This document shows, piece after piece, positions 11,338 to 57,284 of a stretch of 64,000 nucleotides of DNA (position 1 is the first letter of the stretch; every line of letters starts with the position of its first letter). A program made the position numbers and the translations under genes. The stretch is from positions 4,245,655 through 4,309,654 of the forward strand of contig JABAKD010000005.1 in NCBI GenBank assembly GCA_012845835.1. The letters run 5' to 3'. This DNA comes from Undaria pinnatifida. Its lineage: Eukaryota > Sar > Phaeophyceae > Laminariales > Alariaceae. The notes under the pieces are model-generated. The model saw only the letters and a list, made by a program, of their open reading frames with translations, did not search any database and had not been told where the DNA came from.

Positions 11338-11896
11338 CAGCCTATCACGGGTGTGGCATGGCCCCCTTCTCTACTAAAAGTTGCTATCGGCGAATGTTTC
11401 GACCAACCCATCGCTCGCGTTTCGTGGCCCGACTCCTTCCTGTAGCTCGCTTTCGGAAATTCATTCAACCAAGCGATGACTGATGTGGTACGGCCAGCAT
11501 CCCTAAACCAGCTTGAGTTTGGGCGCGCATTTAATCACTCCATCGCTGTAGTCGTCTTGCCGACCGATTAGCGGTCACTGGGGCTCGGCGTAGACTGTAA
11601 CGAGCCAATCGAGGGAGTCGCGTGGCCGGCAGCACTGCGGCGGCTGTCTTTTAGCGACAGGTTTGTCCAAGTAGCGGGGGCGGCCGTGTGGCCTGCTTCC
11701 TTGCGGCTACCGGTATTTCGGGAGGAGTTCTTCGAACAAGACGGTGGGTCCGATTGCCCCCCCATCAGCGACTTATTTGGTCACGCGGGTAAATGCTGTA
11801 AAACGTTGGGTGTGGCGCGTGCTTCGATATAGGTAGCACTGTTCGTCTGAAATGTTTCCGAATGACAGGTGTTCTAAACCCAACATCGTCGTGAAT
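11338..11896. other. No gene seen
   Basis: About 560 bp without a supported gene, repeat or RNA. Short minus-strand frames (11568-11765, 11765-11968) have no recognisable features. Confidence 0.35.
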
Positions 11897-12069
11897 AGGC
11901 CATGTTTTCTTTTTGCATGATGATTTTTGTCGTGTACCTAGGCCACGGTATTTTTTATCCGGTTTCATAGCAGTTTTGTTTGTTTTTTCAGATCAGTTTT
12001 CGGCAGAGGTCTTAAGCTCCCAAAATGAGGAACCTAAGAAAAAAACGTTGTGCAGACCAATGCTACGTA
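11897..12069. mobile_element. Family A MITE fragment
   Basis: Shares the ordered interior words of family A: ATGATTTTTGTCGTGTACCTAG, GGCCACGG, ATCCGG, then TTAAGCTCCCAAAATGAGGA and GCAGACCAATGCTACGTATG at its right end. The left TIR is missing. Family A full copies are at 58862, 62142, 57023 and 45141. Confidence 0.5.
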
Positions 12070-28032: not shown

Positions 28033-28899
28033 ATGGGTATGGAATCACGGCATGGCACACCATGTGCGAAGTCTCCACGGCGCCGAGTCTTTGATGAGGC
28101 CAGGAGTACCCGATGTTGCGAGATGGATGGCCACGTACAAGGTGGGCATGGGGGGAAACCAATGCCGTGCTTGAGATGCTGCGCGCTGCGTCCTCGAGGA
28201 AGCGGCACGCAGCTGGAACAGTCCGCGTGGCGCTTACACCGCAGAGGAAGGCAAACGGACGTGTTCGTCGTGATAACCCTTCGAAGGGTGGAAACGAGCT
28301 CACTGTCCGAGGTTTCTGGAGGATCCAGCATTGACGACGACGTGTTCGTCGTGATAACCCTTCGAAGGGTGGAAACGAGCTCACTGTCCGAGGTTTCTGG
28401 AGGATCCAGCATTGACGACGACGAGGGCGGCGGCGAAGACAAGGACGAGGAGGACGATCGGGCGGATGAGGAGGATGGGGAGGACGGTAAGGATGACGAG
28501 GACGAAGAGGACCGCGACGACGATGAGGACGACGGGAAGGACGGGGAACAAGACGAGGGCGGCGGCGAAGTCAAGGACGAGGTGGACGACAAGGACAGGG
28601 AGGATGAGGAGGACTGGGAGGATGACGAGGACGAGGAGGACAAGGACGAGGATGAAGAGGACAACAACGCCGACCACGGAAACGTAGCAACGGATGGCAG
28701 TGAAAGGGGCCGGAAGAACGAGGAAGGCTTTCGGTTGAGCTCCGCAAACAATGGGCAAGATGGAAAAATCAGTCGCGAGTTGTCCCCAAACGTCGCTGAG
28801 AATGACCGCGATATCAGTAGTGGAGTAGATGATGTTGGATCGGCTGCGCGGGTCAGCAGCAGGGGGCGGGTGCGCACGAAGAAAGGCGTTTCGATTTAG
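28033..28899 (+). CDS. Acidic Asp/Glu-rich hypothetical protein, possibly the 3' end of a decayed gene
   Basis: A 288-codon plus frame. Residues 1-75 are basic and Cys/Arg-rich. Residues about 76-129 are an exact 27-residue tandem duplication (VFVVITLRRVETSSLSEVSG and so on). Residues about 131-216 are an almost pure Asp/Glu tract, and the tail ends with Ser/Arg/Lys (RVSSRGRVRTKKGVSI). Acidic tracts of this kind are common in nuclear and chromatin-associated proteins, but that is only a composition argument. The first 75 residues compete with two other protein-like frames, so the true start or exon boundary is uncertain. The 396-codon frame on the opposite strand is a Ser-rich mirror of the acidic tract. 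Confidence 0.35.
   Translation: MGMESRHGTPCAKSPRRRVFDEARSTRCCEMDGHVQGGHGGKPMPCLRCCALRPRGSGTQLEQSAWRLHRRGRQTDVFVVITLRRVETSSLSEVSGGSSIDDDVFVVITLRRVETSSLSEVSGGSSIDDDEGGGEDKDEEDDRADEEDGEDGKDDEDEEDRDDDEDDGKDGEQDEGGGEVKDEVDDKDREDEEDWEDDEDEEDKDEDEEDNNADHGNVATDGSERGRKNEEGFRLSSANNGQDGKISRELSPNVAENDRDISSGVDDVGSAARVSSRGRVRTKKGVSI
28258..28422. repeat. Exact 81-bp tandem duplication
   Basis: The 81 bp starting GTGTTCGTCGTGATAACCCT at 28261 are repeated without any visible change from 28342. The period is a multiple of three, so the acidic frame is kept. Perfect identity points to a recent event or to selection on the unit. Confidence 0.95.
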
Positions 28900-33691: not shown

Positions 33692-33815
33692 GCGCCTAGG
33701 CATACAACGAAAATCACGAAAAAAAATGGCTGCTTTCCGACGATTTAGTGTTAAGGAGCGCCACCCTTCAGAAACCGTTCCAGAAAAAGGGCTACCTCTA
33801 TCGTATCATGGGTCG
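33692..33815. mobile_element. Family A MITE, 3' part
   Basis: Keeps the family A right half: CCTAGGCATACAACGAAAAT, CCGACGATTTAGTGTTAAGG, AGCGCCACCCTTCAGAAACC and the right TIR GGGCTACCTCTATCGTATCATG. The left half is absent. Confidence 0.65.
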
Positions 33816-34403
33816 CTTGCTTATTATATTTCTACACGACGCAAGGAAAATGTTCGTTTTCGCGAGAAATACGCCATGCATGGTGGGTGAGAGCTGCAAA
33901 ACGACATGTGACAGGGTTGTGAGATTCGTACCCAAACGAACCATTGTGGTGGCTTTGGTCTTCCTTCTTCTTGCTTCATTTTTTTTTTCGTCCGTAGTTT
34001 CGATCAAATATCACCGAAAAGCCTCGAACAAATAATGCCAACTGGAACCTCAAGCGACAGCACAGTTTTTTTCCTAGAGTTCCAAAACGAACTTTGGCGG
34101 GTATGTCCGTTTGACAAGACGATTCTACTTGTCGTTGGCCTTTTTCCGTTCCTTATTTTTTGCTTCTTCAGGTGCGTAATATGAATAGAAATATCTTGCC
34201 ATGACGGACACCCCCGCCAATTTTTCTTTTCCAATTCTCTTGAGCCACTACGCTATTGTTTGAAAACAAACATTTACACGTATAGACTATATGGTAGCCC
34301 TACACATACCGCTGGAGTCAGACCGTACTCTTCCAACCCCACCTTCCACTAACGGATTAATCTGGCAACTCCTCCTCGGGCTGATTGCAAAGGCCGCGCC
34401 AAG
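33816..34403. promoter_or_regulatory. Upstream region of the beta-helix gene
   Basis: This region precedes the ATG at 34404. A weak TATA-like word (GTATAGACTATATGG) lies at about 34280, some 120 bp before the ATG. I see no stronger promoter signal, and no other gene. Sequence near 34025-34130 (GGCATTATTTGTTCGAGG-type and AGTTCCAAAACGAACTTTGG) has no assigned family. Confidence 0.25.
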
Positions 34404-36600
34404 ATGAAGGGCTCCCTGGTGCGGTCGTCGATTGCGCTCCTGCTGCTATCACCCAGCCAAAGGTCGGTGGCAGTGCCTTGTACGTCGTCCGAGGTTTTCG
34501 TACCGTCTGTGGTGAGCGACACAGCTGGGGCCTTGCAATTGGCAGAGGCCCTCAACTGCTCGGCGGGGGGGTCGTTTGACGTGGAGTGGGTGGGCTCTGT
34601 CGTGATGGAGGAACCCATCCGCGTGTTCGGAGGCACATCGCTTAGCCTGACGGGGACCTCAGACAAAACCTCGATTCTTGATGGAACCGGTCAGAGCTCC
34701 TTGTTCGAAGTGCACAGTGGCAGTGCCCTCCATCTGTTTCGTCTGGGACTAACCAACGGCGCGGGTGTCCAAGGGGCAGTAATACACGCCACAGAATCCT
34801 ACGTAACCATGGCTGGTTGCACGGTCTCCAACAACACCGGCGACTATGGGGCGGGAATATTCCTCAAAACTTCCACGCTTGAGACTGAAAATTCCTCGTT
34901 TACTGGTAACATGGCGTCCAAAGACGGAGGTGCATTATACATGAGCGCATCGGTAGTGACTGTTGGCCGAAACGTCCTTTTTGAAGGCAACAACGCGTCA
35001 AGCGGTGGCGCGGCGTACCTGACCGATGGCTCGGCTTTCGTGATTGCTGGTGATACAGTCTCTTTTACAAGAAACACCGCTGCCGTGCACGGGGGTGGTG
35101 TTCATGCCCAGCACTCAACAGTGTCTGTGTCGAACACAGTCGAGTTTGTCGGAAACAGCGCAGAGTTTGGAGGTGGCGCCCGCACATACAACTGCTCGAT
35201 TTGGATTCACGGAGATGTAATGTTTTCGAATAACTCTGCGAGTGGCAGGGGAGGTGCGTTGCAGGGTGATTTTTCAATCATAAATTTCGTGGGCACTGCT
35301 ATGTTTCGGAACAACTCAGCATCCATCAGCGGCGGAGGTATCACCATGTGGAACACAGACATGCACGTGCAGGACTCCGGTAAAATCGAGTTCGTGGGAA
35401 ACACGGCAGGAATAGGAGGCGCGGCTTACATTGGCGCCGGTACTCTCTACATTGAAGGCGAAGCACTCTTCCGAGAAAACGTCGCAAACTTAAGGGGTGG
35501 TGCGGTGAACAGCGACTTCTCCTTCATAAACATATCAGGCAACACTGTGTGGGTGACAAACCGCGCACCCGAAGTGGGCGGGGGGCTGAATATGTGGGAA
35601 TCAAACATGTCCGTGCAGGCTTCTGGCAGTGCGGCATTTGTCGGGAACCACGCGGGTCATGGAGGCGGTGTGTCAGTGACCGGTGATGTGTCGGAGGGCG
35701 GCGGTACGCTTTCGGTCGTAGGTGAGATTGGTTTTATAGATAATCTCTCGGACAAGGGGGGAGGTGGCCTTTTCAGTGGCCTCTGCACTATTCTCGTGAG
35801 CGGTGTTGCGTACTGGGAAGGAAATCTGGCGGGGAAGGGGGGTGGAGCGCTTGAGATGTCGAAGTCAACTCTGTTGGTGCAGTCTCAGGGCACAACGAAG
35901 TTTGTCGGCAACACCGCCGAGTATGGCGGCGCCGTATACTCCCATGCCTCCACGATTTTGGTTGACGGCAACCTAACATTTGCAGAAAATTCCGCGGTTG
36001 ACCGCGGCGGTGCTTTGTTCAACAACTTCGCCGTCGTCAACATCTCAGGCACCGCTGTATTCGAAAACAACACCGCACCGGTCAAAGGCGGGGGATGCTT
36101 CTCATGGTCATCGGGTTTGCACGTCGAGGGCGGCGGTAACATAGTATTCTCAAACAACAGTGCGACGGTCGGAGGGGGCCTGACGCTCGGCGGCTACGCC
36201 ACTATGACCGTTACCGGTATGTCGACCTTCTCCAACAACACCGCCGATGTTGGGGCTGGCATCAAAATGGAACAGTTTTCGTCGGGAAGCTTTGCGGGTG
36301 CAGTGACCATGTTCGGCAACAGTGCTTCTTCGAGTGGCGGGGCTATGCATTGCGAGTCTCCAACCCTGCTAAGTATCGACGGGGTGAAGTTTGTATCGAA
36401 CTACGCGGGCGTTAGTGGGGGAGCGATAACTACGCTTTTAGCGGGAACCGAGATAAGCGCGGTAGGAGCGGGCGCGAAGCCTGCGGTAATATGGAACTGT
36501 GAATTTACTGACAACACGGCTGTCGACGCTGGTGGAGCCGTGTTCATTGCTGGGGGCTTTGTCAACATCGCGGGTTCTCAATTCCGCGGCAACCTTGCAG
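34404..36600 (+). CDS. Exon 1: signal peptide and most of the beta-helix
   Basis: Codes for residues 1-732 plus one base. After the signal peptide and a Cys-containing lead-in (VPCTSSE, LNCSAGG), roughly 20 or more rungs of 25-35 residues follow. Each is of the type F-x-x-N-x-A/S-x-x-x-G-G-A/G followed by a strand segment with S-x-L/V-x-V. The Asn and Gly positions are those that shape turns in pectate-lyase-like beta-helices. The exon ends at CTTGCAG with a GTGAGT donor at 36601 (phase 1). Reading through the donor would give an unrelated tail that stops at 36734. Confidence 0.9.
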
Positions 36601-39600
36601 GTGAGTCGACGACGGTTTTGCCCCTATTCGAAGAATTGGGGTGTGGTACTATTAATAAGTCATCCTTAAAGGGTGTTGGCACAGGCTTGCGCTGGTGGTG
36701 GTTGTACTACCTGGCTGGTGCTTGCAACGCCTAGAAGATGATTCGAGTTGATTACGCAGCTTTGTGGGTCAGAAATACTTGGGGCGTTCTACGGAACTTT
36801 GCAGACCCAGGAAGTACTCGTAACCTGTGAGGAGACGCGCGGATCAAAGCCGACCAGATAATAACGGTGTAGGGAGAGGGTCTGTATCTCGAACTCTAGA
36901 ACAATGCCGGTGTCTACAGTAGAAGCCCAAGACGTCTATTGATGGTGTACTGCCAGTTCATGAGGCCTGTAGGACATTTGGACCGTGTAACGCCAATGAC
37001 TCATCCCACGGTAGAGTTTGCACTGTTTGTGCCAAAAAAAGGTATACCGTCGGTCCGATTGAGCTCCTCAAGTGAGTAGCTACTAGTAGCGGGCAGTCAT
37101 TAGTCAAGCACATTCACGAGTATAGTTCTATACTTTTAGTACGATAATAAGGCATAGACGCTTGGTCGGGTTGTGCGAACGAATGCCTTCGAGATCATTT
37201 TTTCGGGTGAGATATTGAGCTCCGCATGTGAGGACCTCAGGGACTGATGCTCGTGCACCCCTACCGTGTAATGCTAATTATATCGAAACCTAACCCCTGT
37301 GGATTACTCTGAACTCCTACCGTGTAGTTGTCTCCAAGCTAAAAGGTTGTGAAATGAAATGTGGTAGAAGGGTTCCTGCCCCTCTTTTAACTCCTGCTCA
37401 AGCTTCGTAATATTTTATGTCAGGTGCATGCACGTGTTACGATACACAGGCTTTTGCAGTGACGCGCCATCTGCAAGCAATGCCATCAGCGACCCCCTCA
37501 AACCTACCGGGGCACGTTGCCATGACAACGCCTCTTTAGAGAGAAAAACGCAAAAGTTTTCAACGTTTTTGTTACTGTATGTCGCACTGAACTCTAAACT
37601 GCACGCGGAGGAGCGTTTGGTCGCCCATGCCTTTTTGCGACACCTACCTCCGCGTCATGTTGGACATTGCCAGGGCGTTCCGGTGGCGCTGCCCTAGTAT
37701 CGACTGTTACTCGACTCGATCATAGTGGGGCAGGCAGGCGGAGTACCCTCTATTTGACCCCAGATATGATGTACGAATAAAGGAGCTGGATGTAAGGCAA
37801 ATCTAACGCATGACACGCCCTGGAAACACGCACTTCCTTTTGCGACTGCCTCTACCCTTGCTGAAAACCCCAGGGCGTTCCGGTGGCGCCATCCTAGCGT
37901 CGGGGGTTACTCAACTCGATCACTGCACCCTCGAGGGCAATGAGGCAGGCGTGGGGGCAGCCGTCACGAGCACGGTTTCGGTATCGCTTTGGTCCACAAA
38001 CTTCACGAATAACACGTTGTTGTGCGACAACGATGACCTCGTTCTGGATTGGACGGACGTGAGTACTATCGACGAAGAGTGGTTCGACAGGGGAAACATT
38101 TTTTGGCTAAATCAAATTTGAAGCGACGGGACACCTTAACCCCGATACAAGTGAATGCATACGCTGTTTTGAGGATAAACTGCTAAGATTTAGTGTGGGA
38201 CAATTGTGTCCTGTAAGGGGTGTCTGAGGAACTATCCGATACCCTTAGGACATCCAATTTTTGCGGGTTAGGCTATCGTTTCTCATCATGTCGTCTGCTC
38301 CGCCGTCGGACAATGATGAATGCTTTTATCTAGCATGCTTCCAGTTAATCAAAGTGGCCATAATCAGGTATACCCGGCGCTTTGTGGCAGAAATTGGGTG
38401 ACTTTCTTTTTCAGTGACAGCAATGAGCCCAGGACGCCATTTCATTGGCCAACGCCAACCACAACCCGAAGCTGACCACAGTTAATTCCGCTGGATTCAC
38501 CCGATTTTGGCTACGCCCCCGTCCCAAAGGTACTCGGTTATTATACCCTCCTACCTGAGAACGGCCGGACTGTTCGAGCACAACGGCCCACCGCTTAACA
38601 TCCGCGTTCCAACCGAGTTCAGTCCTTCGTTACTGACGAAGGTGGACAATAACCATATCTCTGCTTGATGTCCACGCGTTGTTCTTGTACCATAACAGAT
38701 GAATAAATACCCATCACCCGCTACACTTATTGTCGAGAGCATACCCGCTCATTCAGCAAATGATTGTTGGTTGCTGCTGGAGAGCAGATGCAGTAGTCAT
38801 AGATACGTTAATTCCAGAAGCAACGAGCCGACGCGTGTGCCGCTATGGTGTGTTGGGGTTGGGGGCTTTGCCACTTGTCAATCAGTAATGCATCCGCCCC
38901 CAGCCCGCTCCCAGCTCCCGCTCCCAGCGCACCAGCGAGGCACACGCGTCGGCTCGTTGCGCCTAGCACGCACGTGCCTATGTCGGCTGATGCAGCCGCT
39001 ATCTAGCATCAACCAACAACCAATCATTGACGAACGTGCGGGCAAGCTCTGTCCCACACATACCTGCCGCGGTGATGGGTGATTTTTCTTCATGTGTTAT
39101 GGTACAAGAACACCGCGTGGATATCAAACAGATGGTCCTGATCTGTCTTCGTCGGTAACAGAAGCATGGACTCAGATGGACCTCGGATGGTACGTGGTGG
39201 AACGTTGCGGTCGAGCAGCCCAGGCATTTTCGGGACGGGAGATATAGTAATCGGGTGTCTCAGAGGGGTTTGAGTAGCCAAAATCGGGTATACCCGACGG
39301 AAATGAGGCCAGCTTCGGGTGGTAACGGGCGTTGACCAATGAAATTACATCCAGGTTACTGCATTGCAAATTTACCCTATTTTAGCATCAAAGGCGTTGG
39401 GTATACATGATCATGGCCAATATTGTTTGGGGAGAGTTGTATGGTAGGGTGTAGACTAATGTATTTGTCTATCACGGGGCGGTATACGTGATCTACTTCG
39501 TTAGGACAGGTCAATGCCCTTTATTGGGTTAACACTTTCAATGCTTATCAAAGTGTGGTTTTGGGCGAGATATAGAGCCCCGCAAGCGAAAAGCCCGGGA

Positions 39601-42600
39601 AAATTTAGATCCATCCGTACCGAGGCATGAATGCTTATCCCGACGCGGAAGTAACAGGCACGCTCCATTCCACCTCAAAAGGATTCTGCCTTTGCTATGC
39701 CTAGACGCCAAGTTGACCGAGGCGAGACACATGCGCACATCAATTTAAAAACACAACCTCTGCTTCTTCCGCTCTGGTCATAAACTGACTGTACACACGC
39801 ATCCTCCCTTTCGTCGTCAACAGGAGGCACCGATTCATTTATGAGCTCACTAATACCAATCGTGAAGGAGGCCTCGTTTTTCGCTTTGTCCCGACACCAT
39901 CAACTGACGTATGCGCTCATCAAATCGATATCACCAGGCCTCTGCCTTTGGATCATCGTGCGAGTCTTGTACCGATGGCTGCTTCAATTGTACAGTGGCG
40001 AATCCCGACAGAGTGCAAGCGTGCCAGCCGGTGCTGACGCACACGACGAGCCCCGAAGCCACCGGCACCATCGAAACGCTCGAGCTGCTGGAAGGCTTCT
40101 GGAGGACGTCCGCCACGAGCCAGGACATCCGCGAATGCTACGAGACCAGCGCCTGCAAGGGCGGGGTGGACGATTACTGCAGCGAAGGGTACCATGGACC
40201 ACGTGAGTTCCTTTAGATGGCTTATCCCCCCAAAAAACAAAAATCAAGTATTTCGCGGGTTATAACCTGGCCCGCGGGTTGGGTCAGGAGATTTTTGCGT
40301 TTCGAGTCGGGCCAGGCCAGGAGGTGTTGGAAATCTCACCGGCCCCATCACGTCGCGTGAAAAGGGATTTCGGCATCTCACGGATAGGGTCGGGACGGAA
40401 CCAATTTACGATACGGCATTTCTTGACGGGCCTTTTTTTTCAGTGACTCGGAGCCAGTCGCGCGAGTGAATACTACACCCGTGTGCTCTTCGATATCGCA
40501 ATTTTCACTAATAATAGCGAATTTTTCGTTAACTTGCCCCAACCACCCACTGCTCGGTCCACGGTTGAGAGAGGTATTGTGCAATTTGAGAGGGGTGGCC
40601 TAAGCAAAGCAAAGATTATGGTATGCCCCTACCGTAGAGACTTAGCATTGGGTCGCCCTGACCCGATCCGACCCGCGAAACGTGACCCGCAAAATGACTC
40701 AGAAAACGTGTTGGTTGGTTGGTTGGTTGGTTGGTTGGTTGGTTGGCTGGTTGGTTGGTTGGTTGGCTGGTTGGTTGGTTGGTTGGCTGGTTGGTTGGTT
40801 GGTTGGTTGGTTGGTTTGTTCTCGGTTTGCCCATACGAGAAGAGTCACGCCCCCAAATTCTCGATTCTCGCGACCCCTTGTCCTGGGATACTCTCGGTAG
40901 ACCAACCTGGGTCTCCGTAACCAAGATGATGCCCCGATGAAAGAAGCACCCAACTTTTGCTAGGCTCCACACTCGAGGATTGTAGAAAAAAATAAGATTT
41001 TTGAGAAACCAGCGAAAGCGAAACCCGACGCACAATTTGGCGGCCTAAGCATACCACGAACAAAAATACAGGCCATCTGAGGTGGTTACATTGATGCTGC
41101 CCCAGGTCGCGATTCCGCGTCCAGTGAACAGGTGTAAACTAGCCCCGAGTAAGCAGTTTTACAAACCCCTGGACTGCGTGCTGCACCTGTCCAATGTGCA
41201 GCACAGGTCGTCGCAAGGAAAATTGGCACTCCAGTTGGGTCCTTTTTCTTGTTCCTGTTGTCCCAGTAGGACGGCAGCTTAAGACAACTCCCCCCCCAAA
41301 ACTGATTTGTTTTAAAAAATAAAGCCGATATCGGATAAAAAAACTTAAACATGGCCTAGGTATACAACGAAAGTCACGATGATTTTGGGTTAAGGAGCGC
41401 CACCCTTCAGAAAAACCGATTAAGGAAAAAGTGCTACCTCTAGATCGTAGCGCAGGTCGTGTGCGTGGCGGGTACCCGGTGTCCCAAGATATGCGCCTTT
41501 ATACTGCAGTAGCTGAATCACATTGTTGGATGGCAAGCATGAACAGTTGACAATACTCAAGGGGATGGTTCCTGCTCACCCCCCGCTCGCTTGTTTCCGT
41601 GGCAGTTTGTGCCGTTTGCGCGAACGGGTACACGACGGGACTGGGATACACCTGTTTAAAGTGCAGCGCGGAGCGTCGCAATGCAACCGTCACGATGGCG
41701 GCAATTGTTCTTGCCGCTGTTGTGGCCGCGGCTGCAGTAAGCGTAACGCTGCTAGGGAATCCCGCAAGTCCATCAGCAGCCAGGAGATGGATTTCCTGCG
41801 GACGTTTCGGGGGACTTCGATCCGGTCCGAAGCACGCCAATATGTCTCAGGTGCCGAAGATTCTCATCGTTTCGTGGCAAATCGTCACCCAGGCAAGTGC
41901 GAAGTGTTAGCCCGGTTGACGAGTCAGAGAAAAAACAGATGAAGACAGGCAATGAAGACTGTGGTACTAGCCCGTACCTGGTTGGGAGTTGTTGTATTCA
42001 ATGTACGAGCTCACGCCAAGGGGTCTTACATAACGGACCGGCGGCCTCAGCATGATCTTGCTCGCACTGATTAATGCACGCTCTTACTATTTGCCAGCGG
42101 GTGAGAAAACAAAACTAGCGCGTATTTTTGGTGCTCCCTTTCGTTCCCAAAACGGCCAACACGATGTACACTACCTTCTTTGCTCAACAAGCACGCGTGC
42201 TACCGTAGATCTAGCCCTTTGTGGAACAATGGATTCCGACGTGACACATCGAGTGTAGATCGTTTCTCAAACGTGGTCTTAAGTCTTATTTGGCTACCAT
42301 GGAATGAACCACCAGGATTCTACTATTAATAGGCGAATATCGTCTCAGGTTGCAGACTCATTCTGCCGATATCCATCAAAAACGATCTTCCCCTTCTTCG
42401 ATGCGTCGCTTTGTCCTGCCGTTGCCCTGTCCGCAGGGTAGTTTTCCATGTTGGCAAGTGTAGCTCACCCGGACATGTACGTGGTGATCCTCGATTGCAT
42501 CAGCGTCGGGCACATGCCGCGGTAGCGGTTCACCTTTTTTTTCCGGGGCTCCTCACTCGAGGATATTCATCCCTCACCCGAAAAACGCAATCCGATGAGC

Positions 42601-44586
42601 AAATCCGTGGCCGAGGTACGCCAAACGATTATCTTCGCAAAACAAAAGCGACATTCCAACGGTGTCGAGTTAAGAAGTGCCGTTATTCAGAAAATGTAAT
42701 TGGCAAAAACGTGCTACCTTTATCTTAGAACGCGTCGACCGTCAACATTACCTCTAGTTGCACGCTCTCGAGTGCCCCATGTTCGGTAGGGGTGCTGAGC
42801 GCAGCCGCCCTTACGATAGCCCTGGTCGGTTCAATTATCCATCTGCCAACGCCCTGCATCACAATGGTACCTGGGTTTCTGACTATTTTGTCCCGTGTAC
42901 GACGCTCTGTTCCTAATTTGAATCGTGGGTTCGAGCCATTTGTCCCGCCGGTAGTTTTCCGTGGCAGCATAGCCGGACGTGTACGAGACCTGTATTCCTC
43001 ACGCACATCAACGAGTGTTCAACCTTGATGTGGGGTGGACACTCTCGGCGGGTTGCCGTGTCGGCACCGAAATGGGGTTGGACGTCTAACATGGCTATGA
43101 ATCCATGCGGGGTGAACCACGAACATTCTTTTATGTGAACCTGGTTTCAGGATCCGGACTCATTTGCCATTATTGGTCGACGAGTTGCTCCTTGTTTGTA
43201 CCTTGTTGTCAGCGTCCAGTCCCGCCCTCGCCGTTACCCGTCAGAGGGCCGTTTCAAGTTTGTACCGTGCTTGCCGGTCGCCCTTCTCTGGTGGTTCTCC
43301 GAGGTGGCGAGCGTATAACATCCGGACGTGTGTATGGTGTATTCCGTAAGGGCACCAGCGGGGCCAACCAAACCCTTGGTTGGATGCGCTCGAGTACCCC
43401 ATCACCGGTGGAAAAAATGATCGTATCCCCTTATACCGTAGCCCTGTTTCATGTCATTATCCATCAAACGACACTCTGCTCCGTATTTGAGCTGCTTTGT
43501 GTTTCGACCACCGTTCCCCTCATACCATGCCCTGCTCCGTGTTTGTGCTTTCTGTCCGACCATGCGTTATATCGTGTGCAGTTTTCCATGGTAGCGAGCG
43601 TAGCATACCCGGACATGTACGAAGTGTTCCTCAAACACATAAACGTGGTCAACCTCAACATCGGCTGGATGCTGTCGGCAGGGTGCGTCATCGACACCGA
43701 CTTCTACGACAAGCTCTTTCTGTCTACCCTTTCACCGTTGGTGGTCGTCTGCGGGGTGGCCACATCGCACACGGTCATCAACAGCCGCTTGAGGTCGACC
43801 GACGGCCGGGAGGCGCGCGCGCGAAATGACAGAAGGCACGCATCGGTTTTGTTCTGGGTGTCCTTCCTGGTGTACTCTACAGTATCCTCCACCATATTCC
43901 AAACCTTTGCCTGCGACGAGTTCGACACCGGACTCTCTTATATCCGGGCAGACCATAGCCTGGAGTGCAATACCTCCACACACACGTGGTTCATGGTATA
44001 CGCTGGCATAATGGGGATAATATACCCTCTTGGCATCCCTTTTTGCTACGCCTTTGTTCTTTTCAAGGGTCGGGAAGTCCTGAAGGGTGAGGAATCTCGT
44101 GACACAGTTTCCACCGACGTGGGCGTGTTAAGGGAGCTGTGGATGTCGTACCGGCCACAAGCGTACCTCTACGAAGTTGTGGAGTGCGCGCGTCGTGCAG
44201 TGCTGTCCGGTGTGATCGTCTTCATTTTTCCGAACACCGCAGGACAAGTAGCCACAGCCTTCTTGCTGGCTCTCTTTTTCGCCGCCGTGTTTATGGCGTT
44301 GGATCCATACACCAGCCGGTGGGATACTTGGGCCGCTCGTACGGGCCACATGGTTGTCCTGATGAGCATGTTCGTGGCGCTCTTGCAGAAGGTGAACATA
44401 GCCGAAGACGATAACTTCAGCCAAGACGTGTTTGCGGGTGTTCTAGTGCTTGCGAACGTGGCAATGATTTTGGCGGCCGGGGCGGAGATATGTGGGATGT
44501 GCGTTACCACTGTTTGGGAAGCGCGGCAGTCTGTCGCCGTTCAGAGCAGGGCAGTAGCAGCGCGTTCGACGCAGAGCATTTCGTGA
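34404..44586 (+). CDS. Beta-helix repeat, Cys-rich, multi-pass membrane protein (POMP-like), five exons
   Basis: The joined exons 34404-36600, 37874-38058, 39938-40202, 41606-41892 and 43582-44586 give 3939 nt, exactly 1313 codons with the stop, with phases matching at every join. Order of parts: signal peptide (residues 1-23, hydrophobic SIALLLL core); a right-handed parallel beta-helix region to about 790, built from rungs such as [12 protein letters not shown] and [13 protein letters not shown] with many Asn-X-Ser/Thr sites; a Cys-rich neck ([32 protein letters not shown]); a first membrane segment ([17 protein letters not shown]); then about six more membrane segments to near the C terminus. 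This order is typical of a family that is expanded in brown algae and annotated as polymorphic-outer-membrane-protein-like or parallel beta-helix proteins. A cell-surface or adhesion/receptor role is inferred; ligand and function are unknown. Start chosen as the ATG that gives the signal peptide. Confidence 0.85.
36999..37273. mobile_element. Family B MITE, copy 2 (in intron 1)
   Basis: The left end ACTCATCCCACGGTAGAGTT and right end TGCACCCCTACCGTGTAATG are inverted repeats. The interior contains GATTGAGCTCCTCAAGTGAG, TAGTCAAGCACATTC, GCTTGGTCGGGTTGTGCGAA and TGAGATATTGAGCTCCGCAT, matching the copy at 14830 in reverse orientation. About 275 bp. Confidence 0.75.
37634..37745 (+). pseudogene. 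Pseudo-exon 2: decayed copy of the intron1/exon2 boundary
   Basis: The word CAGGGCGTTCCGGTGGCGC at 37671 is identical to the real boundary at 37871, exactly 200 bp downstream. The following 30 bp and the preceding 40 bp (TTTTTGCGACACCTACC against CTTTTGCGACTGCCTCTACC) are clearly related. The acceptor AG and the phase are kept. Read in the gene's frame it gives [20 protein letters not shown] and stops at a TAA at 37778-37780, with no donor before it that I recognise. Confidence 0.8.
37874..38058 (+). CDS. Exon 2: last beta-helix rungs
   Basis: 185 nt. It completes the split Gly codon from exon 1 and continues [40 protein letters not shown] and a final [14 protein letters not shown]. The rung motif (SGGAILASG) shows that it still belongs to the helix. 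It ends in phase 0 at a GTGAGTAC donor at 38059. Reading through the donor gives an unrelated tail. Confidence 0.85.
38059..39937 (+). other. Intron 2 (GT-AG), mostly a foldback element
   Basis: 1879 nt, from GTGAGTACTATC to GATATCACCAG. More than half is the inverted-repeat element at 38356-39418. The rest (38122-38355 and 39419-39937) shows no other feature. A CAACAG acceptor-like word at 39818-39823 is also in phase but would lead to a TGA after six codons, so I chose the acceptor at 39936-39937. Confidence 0.8.
38356..39418. mobile_element. Foldback element, about 1.06 kb with arms of about 0.5 kb
   Basis: The left arm 38356-38855 and right arm 38928-39418 are inverted copies. Outer ends: GGCCATAATCAGGTATACCC against, in reverse complement, GGCCATGATCATGTATACCC. 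Mid arm: TTTCATTGGCCAACGCC against TTTCATTGGTCAACGCC, and CCGATTTTGGCTAC in both. Inner ends: TTGTTCTTGTACCATAACAG and AGCCGACGCGTGTGCC, mirrored. Only about 70 bp separate the arms. No intact transposase frame is seen. It could be a foldback-type transposon or two long TIRs left after loss of the centre. Confidence 0.8.
39938..40202 (+). CDS. Exon 3: Cys-rich neck
   Basis: 265 nt, phase 0 start, phase 1 end. Reads [20 protein letters not shown], then [40 protein letters not shown] and [18 protein letters not shown]. The paired cysteines are typical of small extracellular disulphide-bonded modules next to the membrane. It ends at CCAC with a GTGAGTTC donor at 40203. Confidence 0.85.
40405..40638. 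mobile_element. Family C MITE, copy 4 (in intron 3)
   Basis: It has GGCCTTTTTTTTCAGTGACTC leading into a damaged palindrome AGTCGCGCGAGTGAA at 40455, and ends GTATGCCCCTACCGTAGAGA. The second internal palindrome is lost. It is older than the copies at 51007 and 30725. Confidence 0.6.
40710..40818. repeat. (TTGG)n microsatellite
   Basis: About 27 units of TTGG with three TTGGCTGG variants at a regular 28-bp spacing. All three plus frames read Trp-Leu-Val-Gly repeats and the minus frames read Asn-Gln-Pro-Thr repeats, which produces several long false open frames. It is intronic. Confidence 0.95.
41343..41460. mobile_element. Family A MITE, 3' fragment (in intron 3)
   Basis: Keeps ATGGCCTAGGTATACAACGA, CGATGATTTTGGGTTAAGGA, GCGCCACCCTTCAGAAAAAC and GTGCTACCTCTAGATCGTAG, in the same order as the right half of full family A copies. 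It is close in sequence to the fragment at 33692. Confidence 0.65.
41606..41892 (+). CDS. Exon 4: end of Cys-rich neck, first membrane segment, linker
   Basis: 287 nt. The first two bases complete the Leu codon split by intron 3, giving [19 protein letters not shown], then [14 protein letters not shown], the membrane segment [20 protein letters not shown], a basic linker and [16 protein letters not shown]. It ends in phase 0 at CACCCAG followed by GCAAGT at 41893, the consensus of GC-type donors. The exon 5 join restores the conserved order of the family (SWQIVTQ followed by a short segment, then YPDMYEVFL). Confidence 0.85.
42410..42515 (+). pseudogene. Pseudo-exon 5, copy 1
   Basis: From 42441 the bases GTTTTCCATG, then GGCAAGTGTAGCTCACCCGG and ACATGTAC follow the real exon start (43581) without an indel for at least 40 bp. 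The acceptor is TAG at 42439-42441. In the exon 5 phase it reads [20 protein letters not shown] and then SVGHMPR before a TAG stop. Confidence 0.8.
42540..42735. mobile_element. Family A MITE, diverged (in intron 4)
   Basis: Contains GGGGCTCCTCACTCGAGGAT, CGAGGTACGCCAAACGATTA, GTCGAGTTAAGAAGTGCCGT, TATTCAGAAAATG and a right end ACGTGCTACCTTTATCTTAG. These match the family A interior order with many substitutions. The left TIR is not found. Confidence 0.5.
42930..43070 (+). pseudogene. Pseudo-exon 5, copy 2
   Basis: From 42955 TTTTCCGTGGCAGCATAGCC GGACGTGTACGAG continues through ATTCCTCACGCACATCAACG, GTTCAACCTTGATGTGGGGT GGACACTCTCGGCGGGTTGCCG to GGCACCGA. It follows exon 5 for about 115 bp with several indels. 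It has a TAG stop after five codons and is clearly dead. Confidence 0.75.
43262..43400 (+). pseudogene. Pseudo-exon 5, copy 3
   Basis: GAGGTGGCGAGCGTATAACA TCCGGACGTG, then GGTGTATTCCGTAAGGGCAC, GGGGCCAACC and CTTGGTTGGATGCGCTCGAG follow exon 5 from 43589 to about 43680. The acceptor region is not preserved. This copy sits closest to the real exon. Confidence 0.65.
43582..44586 (+). CDS. Exon 5: multi-pass membrane domain
   Basis: 334 codons and a TGA. Begins [20 protein letters not shown] and [20 protein letters not shown], then membrane segments around [104 protein letters not shown] and [20 protein letters not shown] conserved-looking loop [19 protein letters not shown] lies between two of them. 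The tail after the last segment is short and polar. Frame upstream of 43582 is open but belongs to the intron. Confidence 0.85.
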   Translation, partial: FSMVASVAYPDMYEVFLKHINVVNLNIGWMLSAGCVIDTDFYDKLFLSTLSPLVVVCGVATSHTVINSRLRSTDGREARARNDRRHASVLFWVSFLVYSTVSSTIFQTFACDEFDTGLSYIRADHSLECNTSTHTWFMVYAGIMGIIYPLGIPFCYAFVLFKGREVLKGEESRDTVSTDVGVLRELWMSYRPQAYLYEVVECARRAVLSGVIVFIFPNTAGQVATAFLLALFFAAVFMALDPYTSRWDTWAARTGHMVVLMSMFVALLQKVNIAEDDNFSQDVFAGVLVLANVAMILAAGAEICGMCVTTVWEARQSVAVQSRAVAARSTQSIS

Positions 44587-57022: not shown

Positions 57023-57284
57023 GATGCGTGCTACGCTAGAGGTGTACCTTTTTTTGGCGTTTTTTTCTGAATGGCGGTTCTCCTGAACCCAAAATCGTCG
57101 GATATACGACCTTTTTTTAGCACGATTCTCGTCTTGTACCTAGGCCATGGGGTTTTTCTCCCGGTACCAGGGGTAGTATTTTTATTTTTTTCAAACCATT
57201 TCTTAGGGAGAGTGGTATGTTAAGCTCCTAAATCGAGGGGTAGTACTAGAAAAAAACTGGTGCACCTCTATTGTAGAAGACATC
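57023..57284. mobile_element. Family A MITE, full copy
   Basis: The left end GATGCGTGCTACGCTAGAGG and right end GCACCTCTATTGTAGAAGACATC are inverted repeats. The interior has CTGAATGGCGGTTCTCCTGA, CCCAAAATCGTCGGATATAC, TTGTACCTAGGCCATGGGGT and TTAAGCTCCTAAATCGAGGG. 262 bp. Confidence 0.75.

Follow-up and report, generated by a model that had tools for sequence, protein, structure and literature searches.

Why should an intron of a kelp gene hold sequence that resembles the start of the exon behind it, and do such copies serve the gene or simply accumulate there? We addressed this question for intron 4 of a gene in Undaria pinnatifida, which lies in a 64,000-nucleotide stretch of DNA (hereafter, the window). 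A first-pass annotation of the window had reported three decayed copies of the exon 5 start in this intron, in duplicated units that also carried upstream intron sequence, and had read them as ongoing modular exon duplication.

The host gene consists of five exons whose splice junctions are conserved, which marks the window as eukaryotic; scans against viral contigs, phages, PDB, Rfam and tRNA models found nothing. Exons 1–4 span 34398–41892 of the forward strand (exon 1 to 36600, then 37874–38058, 39938–40202 and 41606–41892), as placed from exon blocks conserved in paralogues and from junctions. The start of exon 1 is not fixed, 34398 being the point where the paralogue match begins. Intron 4 (41893–43581, forward strand) has a GC donor (CAG/GCAAGT) and an AG acceptor, and its junctions are conserved in the three nearest paralogues, here called A, B and C. 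Exon 5 (43582–44586, forward strand), the coding part of the terminal exon, is an open frame of 1005 bp encoding 334 amino acids plus the stop, and its protein was 68, 65 and 64% identical to those of three paralogues. A GC donor (41893–41898 in the window) was also seen in A, B, C and members L033 and E; of the 17 members with a located exon 4, 6 thus had GC and 11 had GT. A 22-bp match between 41887–41908 and 43607–43628 spans the exon 4 donor and was taken as chance. Elsewhere in the window, intron 3 contains a GTTG tetranucleotide array of 27.8 copies (40710–40820), and a perfect 81-bp tandem duplication (28258–28423) adjoins an acidic low-complexity stretch and lies within open frames on both strands.

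Exon 1 carries Chlam_PMP / POMP_repeat repeats (Pfam PF02415, 3.5e-26; NCBIfam TIGR01376, 4.4e-32). A Pfam scan of the exon 1, exon 4 and exon 5 frames (E 0.1) did not find the chlamydial autotransporter C-terminal domain, and exon 5 had no confident family match, with only a sub-threshold YitT_membrane hit in Pfam and none in NCBIfam or PDB. Judged by these profiles, the host gene shares the polymorphic-outer-membrane-protein repeat but is not a member of that family. We searched the genome assembly, which comprises 511,146,479 bases in 68 contigs. The exon 5 protein had 123 matches, fragments included, and by our own count 60 of them ran from query position 1–3 to at least 298 without a stop. 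The exon 1 protein had 84 matches; several matches to the two proteins contained in-frame stops, and together they point to a large family.

Alignment of the units showed that the three decayed copies in intron 4 are real and that, with the intact exon 5 as the last of four units, they make up one head-to-tail array; the positions given in the first-pass annotation were right to within a few bases. The exon part of relic 1 (42442–42512) matched exon 5 at 54 of 71 positions (Gumbel p 2e-9) and ended at exon position +70. Relic 2 (42955–43070) matched at 84 of 125 columns with gaps (p 1e-12) and reached +119, in keeping with the earlier estimate that this copy could be followed for about 115 bp. 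Relic 3 (43295–43392) matched at 65 of 98 positions (p 1e-7) and ended at +96. None of 1000 dinucleotide shuffles per pair equalled any of the three relic-to-exon scores. The diagonals between the relics and exon 5, whose absence from a dot-plot had been named as the refutation, were visible in self-BLAST. All three window relics contain a stop in the exon 5 frame. Differences between copy 1 and the exon fell at codon positions 1, 2 and 3 in 5, 3 and 7 cases, which is a very small sample. When every exon was first compared with every intron, exon 2 against intron 4 scored 33.5, with 31.5 for the best shuffle, a weak result obtained with preliminary exon limits and 60 shuffles.

The units themselves, whose boundaries in the array alignment were chosen by eye, all lie on the forward strand. 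Unit 1 (42262–42538) comprises an intron part, which pairs with that of unit 3, and relic 1, placed by its alignment to exon 5. It also contains a dispersed repeat that the first-pass annotation had overlooked, at 42539–42742 with a core at 42581–42738 (boundaries approximate; roughly 0.15–0.25 kb, no strand assigned). At least 39 other places in the genome matched within 42513–42755 (query 621–863), and the repeat also matched 11802–11964, 33706–33815 and 57023–57150, among other places in the window. The stretch 42743–43070 holds the end of relic 1 and then unit 2, with roughly 180 bp of intron ahead of relic 2; it matched the true exon 5 unit (43365–43700) over 344 columns at 61–62% identity (E 2e-20). 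Unit 3, with its intron part and relic 3, occupies 43071–43392, and the intron part of unit 4 (43393–43581), directly before the true acceptor, pairs with that of unit 2 (p 2e-4 on intron sequence alone). Units 1–4 are thus head-to-tail copies containing both intron and exon sequence, that is, a tandem duplication across the intron–exon boundary. The claim that the copied unit spans the splice boundary was borne out in a specific form, since the upstream intron sequence is shared in pairs, unit 2 with the true unit and unit 1 with unit 3. The intact exon 5 is the last copy, and the upstream copies are cut short on the exon side at no more than +119 of 1005 bp. A whole-exon duplication with both splice sites was not found, only exon parts to +70, +119 and +96 being aligned; when full exon 5 was used as the query, its best match in intron 4 still ended at +119.

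The array also preserves a likely order of events. With intron sequence alone, unit 1 paired with unit 3 (p 8e-8) and unit 2 with unit 4, while the other four pairings gave p values of 0.003 to 0.06. Across six alignments of 104–242 gap-free columns, 11–29 sites favored grouping units 1 and 3 apart from 2 and 4, versus 3–11 for 1 and 4 apart from 2 and 3, and 2–5 for 1 and 2 apart from 3 and 4. Relics 1 and 3 were also sisters in two trees of the exon parts (support 71 and 90). By eye, the unit 1/unit 2 and unit 3/unit 4 junctions fall at a like exon point, and the unit 2/unit 3 junction falls elsewhere. Because the intron parts pair 1 with 3 and 2 with 4, the simplest history would be a duplication of about 310 bp followed by duplication of the resulting dimer of about 620 bp.

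The age of the array was judged against the nearest paralogues. Intron 4 measures 1689 bp in the window versus 321, 306 and 562 bp in A, B and C, and no relics were found in intron 4 of these three genes. When their introns were compared with the array units, 0 of 15 alignments scored above the best shuffle. Because those introns fail to align while the units align mutually, the array seems to postdate the split from A, B and C. Trees of the exon sequences gave weaker support for this dating: placing the relics outside the group of the window gene and A, B and C was rejected (p-AU 0.032), but neither a grouping with A (p-AU 0.09) nor one that joins them to B and C (0.15) was. Identity of the relics was 66–75% to the window exon and 58–71% to A, B or C. 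At the level of sequence, no new spliced intron was seen, the window gene and A, B and C sharing exon blocks and junctions. Intron 2 of paralogue B contains a direct repeat of its own, 272 bp long, 94% identical and 420 bp apart (around G000:C52:3003700-3004400, a place converted by hand).

Relics were not confined to intron 4. A relic of the acceptor and the exon 2 start lies in intron 1 (37633–37740, forward strand; 80/119 to the true copy at 37838–37951, in which exon 2 starts at 37874; p ~3e-8). Intron 3 holds a relic of exon 4 positions +33 to +118 (41171–41261, forward strand; 60/93 to the true copy at 41638–41723); it was the weakest of all, with p values of 4e-5 and 8e-5 and a score of 51 against 49 for the best shuffle, and was missed by the BLAST criterion. 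The shuffle test showed no relic of an adjacent exon in intron 2. Relics of the previous exon in the following intron were absent from all 16 tests in the window gene and A, B and C. At p < 1e-3, the three paralogues had next-exon relics in 0 of 12 introns and previous-exon relics in 0 of 12 (these tests used a hand-set exon 2 end in paralogue B, some 23 bp late), and none of the 17 members with a located exon 4 had an exon-4-end relic. Every relic found touches an exon start and none an exon end. By the shuffle test, 3 of 4 host gene acceptors had a relic versus 0 of 12 in A–C; by the BLAST criterion it was 2 of 4 (P 0.026). The 3 of 4 would give P 0.001 at the BLAST-based rate, a figure for which the two criteria were not measured alike, and the choice of this gene for its relics bears on both per-gene P values.

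We then compared 29 family members before exon 5 (the window gene, A, B, C, E, L033–L050 and L052–L057), a non-random set composed mostly of best matches, over 1352–1400 bp of upstream sequence (2000 bp for the window gene, 800 bp for L052–L057). The shuffle test found relics at p < 1e-3 in four: the window gene, L038 and L053 with three copies each, and L057 with one. L038 and L053, whose upstream sequences were 93% identical, are distant members that are near-identical to each other and carry a separate three-relic array of the exon 5 start in intron 4 (594–1277 in L038), whose relics in L038 reach at most about exon +156. The tree tests rejected a single origin for the window array and that of L038 (p-AU 9e-5; 5e-5 with L057 included) but not a topology in which each array groups with its own exon (p-AU 0.43). 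The best topology placed two L038 relics apart from the L038 exon, with low support (32) for their position, and the L038 array may therefore be older than the divergence of L038 from relatives such as L057. Comparison of L038 with L053 gave divergences of 5.6, 5.7 and 7.4% for the relics of this array, of 5.4, 3.2 and 6.5% for the intron gaps and of 3.1% for the exon start, each segment containing few differences (3–14). Because relic and intron divergence are alike, such relics seem to evolve about like intron, within the limits of these small numbers. The duplication was thus repeated, as first claimed: intron 4 saw two rounds, and further relics formed separately in introns 1 and 3 and in other family members. 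Its description as ongoing found no support, since the array units are only ~52–64% alike. The term modular exon duplication was only partly right: the copies are repeated and boundary-spanning, but they are partial (to about +119 at most here, and about +156 in L038), and each window copy bears a stop.

How unusual are such copies in this genome? In 20 stretches of 10 kb (200 kb; L013–L032), at set places on two contigs only (C52 and C56), we counted 55 clusters of decayed local direct repeats, or 2.75 per 10 kb. Clusters were defined as direct repeats 80–1500 bp apart and were unscreened for transposon pairs; the direct copies lay mostly ~100–900 bp apart. Six window blocks contained 15 such clusters, the intron 4 array itself included, and 26 shuffled controls contained none. 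The downstream copies of decayed local repeats covered 6.9% of bases (bootstrap 5.0–8.9), a rate at which 2.0 of 29 acceptors would be expected to carry a relic. Scored alike, with BLAST, 3 of 29 did (window, L038 and L053; at most two independent; P for three or more, 0.32), and the 4 of 29 from the shuffle test gave P 0.14 at the same background rate. Acceptor relics do not look special to the exon 5 family. A simulation with approximate intron lengths put the acceptor share of tolerable duplications touching an exon at 56%; thus, finding only acceptor cases among few events is not strong evidence of bias.

In our judgment, the intron 4 copies are most likely a neutral by-product of pervasive local tandem duplication. 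Small tandem duplications would have copied a segment running from intron 4 across the acceptor into the first 100–120 bp of exon 5, with some decay between the ~310-bp round and that of the dimer. After each event, the most downstream copy would still be the full exon behind its own acceptor; as long as splicing goes to that site, the protein would stay the same, and the cut-short upstream copies would decay as intron. Introns 1 and 3 would owe their relics to similar events, and intron 4 of distant members would have been hit separately. As for the mutational process itself, we infer replication slippage, template switching or unequal exchange. Because local tandem duplication is common in the genome, the relics are real but probably ordinary, and the window copies seem inert. 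It is unlikely, in contrast, that they were kept as decoy or alternative 3′ splice sites, whose use would end the protein soon after exon 4, without the exon 5 region. Among the 67 AG sites of intron 4, scored with a matrix from 40 acceptors, the relic 2 site (42954; 8.3) all but tied with the true acceptor (8.5), which itself lay below the lower quartile (9.5) of those 40; the relic 1 sites (42436 and 42441; 5.2 and 4.5) ranked 4th–5th. Entry at 42441 would read 27 codons to a stop and entry at 42954 five, and GC donors are a class often linked to alternative splicing. However, exon-start bases that the relics inherited account for part of their scores, the AG of relic 3 is gone and no such site stands among the top-scoring ones, the L038/L053 relics diverge about as fast as intron, and the nearest paralogues share the GC donor yet lack relics. 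We infer that splicing takes place at the true acceptor, 43581. A bolder version, in which copying of an acceptor and a terminal-exon start recurs independently in the PMP-repeat family and leaves live decoy acceptors, making intron 4 an evolving isoform switch, strikes us as even less likely; if true, occasional decoy use would yield truncated ectodomain forms without the exon 5 part.

Origins other than local tandem duplication of an exon start fared worse. That the relics were once mutually exclusive or alternative whole exons, later cut short, has a precedent in a report on brown algal ROCO genes, which describes tandem LRR exons with alternative splicing (PMC11378527), and yet it seems very improbable here. 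No window relic extended past about exon +119, the best match to the full-exon query included, and exon 5 is terminal and ~1 kb long; because two junctions fall at a like point (by eye) and no relic passes ~+119, the copies look cut short at birth. More improbable still is their arrival from other family members by gene conversion or ectopic insertion. The family is large, with its 123 exon 5 matches, the relics resemble the window exon only slightly more than they do A, B or C, and the groupings with A or with B and C stood unrejected. Against this, the intron sequence of the units was shared in register with the true exon 5 unit and occurred at no other place among the genome matches listed (the search skips very common words and scores the best candidates alone), and relics outside the window/A/B/C group were rejected, as described above. 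Least credible of all is chance similarity or low-complexity sequence: single shared words are short and the copies only 66–76% alike, but this origin was refuted by the dinucleotide shuffle tests (p 1e-12 to 1e-7).

Under local tandem duplication, the locus offers a readable case of intron lengthening by duplication across an acceptor, with a likely order of events. Because downstream copies of decayed local repeats take up roughly 7% of the bases sampled, acceptor-spanning relics should be common in this kelp genome, and they should not be taken for exon shuffling without more evidence. Should the relic acceptors turn out to be in use, this family would become a test case for the origin of isoforms by partial duplication.

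Short local tandem duplications are known in eukaryotic genomes. The intron 4 array resembles them in consisting of decayed direct copies, and the one difference is that its segment happens to take in an acceptor and coding sequence. Among the top-ranked matches in the open-licence literature, we found no report of such relics in the exon 5 family. Brown algal ROCO genes (PMC11378527) shuffle whole LRR exons of 72 bp and phase 2 that are kept as coding modules. They share with our case a brown algal host, a large gene family and repeated exon-scale duplication inside genes; unlike their whole coding exons, the copies in the host gene are partial, stop-bearing and left in introns. Closest in kind is the potato RdRp gene, in which a tandem duplication across an intron–exon boundary led to intron gain (Ma, Lan and Niu 2016, PMC4974935). 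There too, the duplication crosses the boundary between an intron and the following exon and carries the acceptor and exon start. In potato the outcome was a new spliced intron, whereas the kelp copies decayed within an old intron over at least two rounds, with no new intron apparent from sequence. On the layout of its units, the intron 4 array is a boundary-spanning tandem duplication of the potato RdRp kind, without apparent intron gain.
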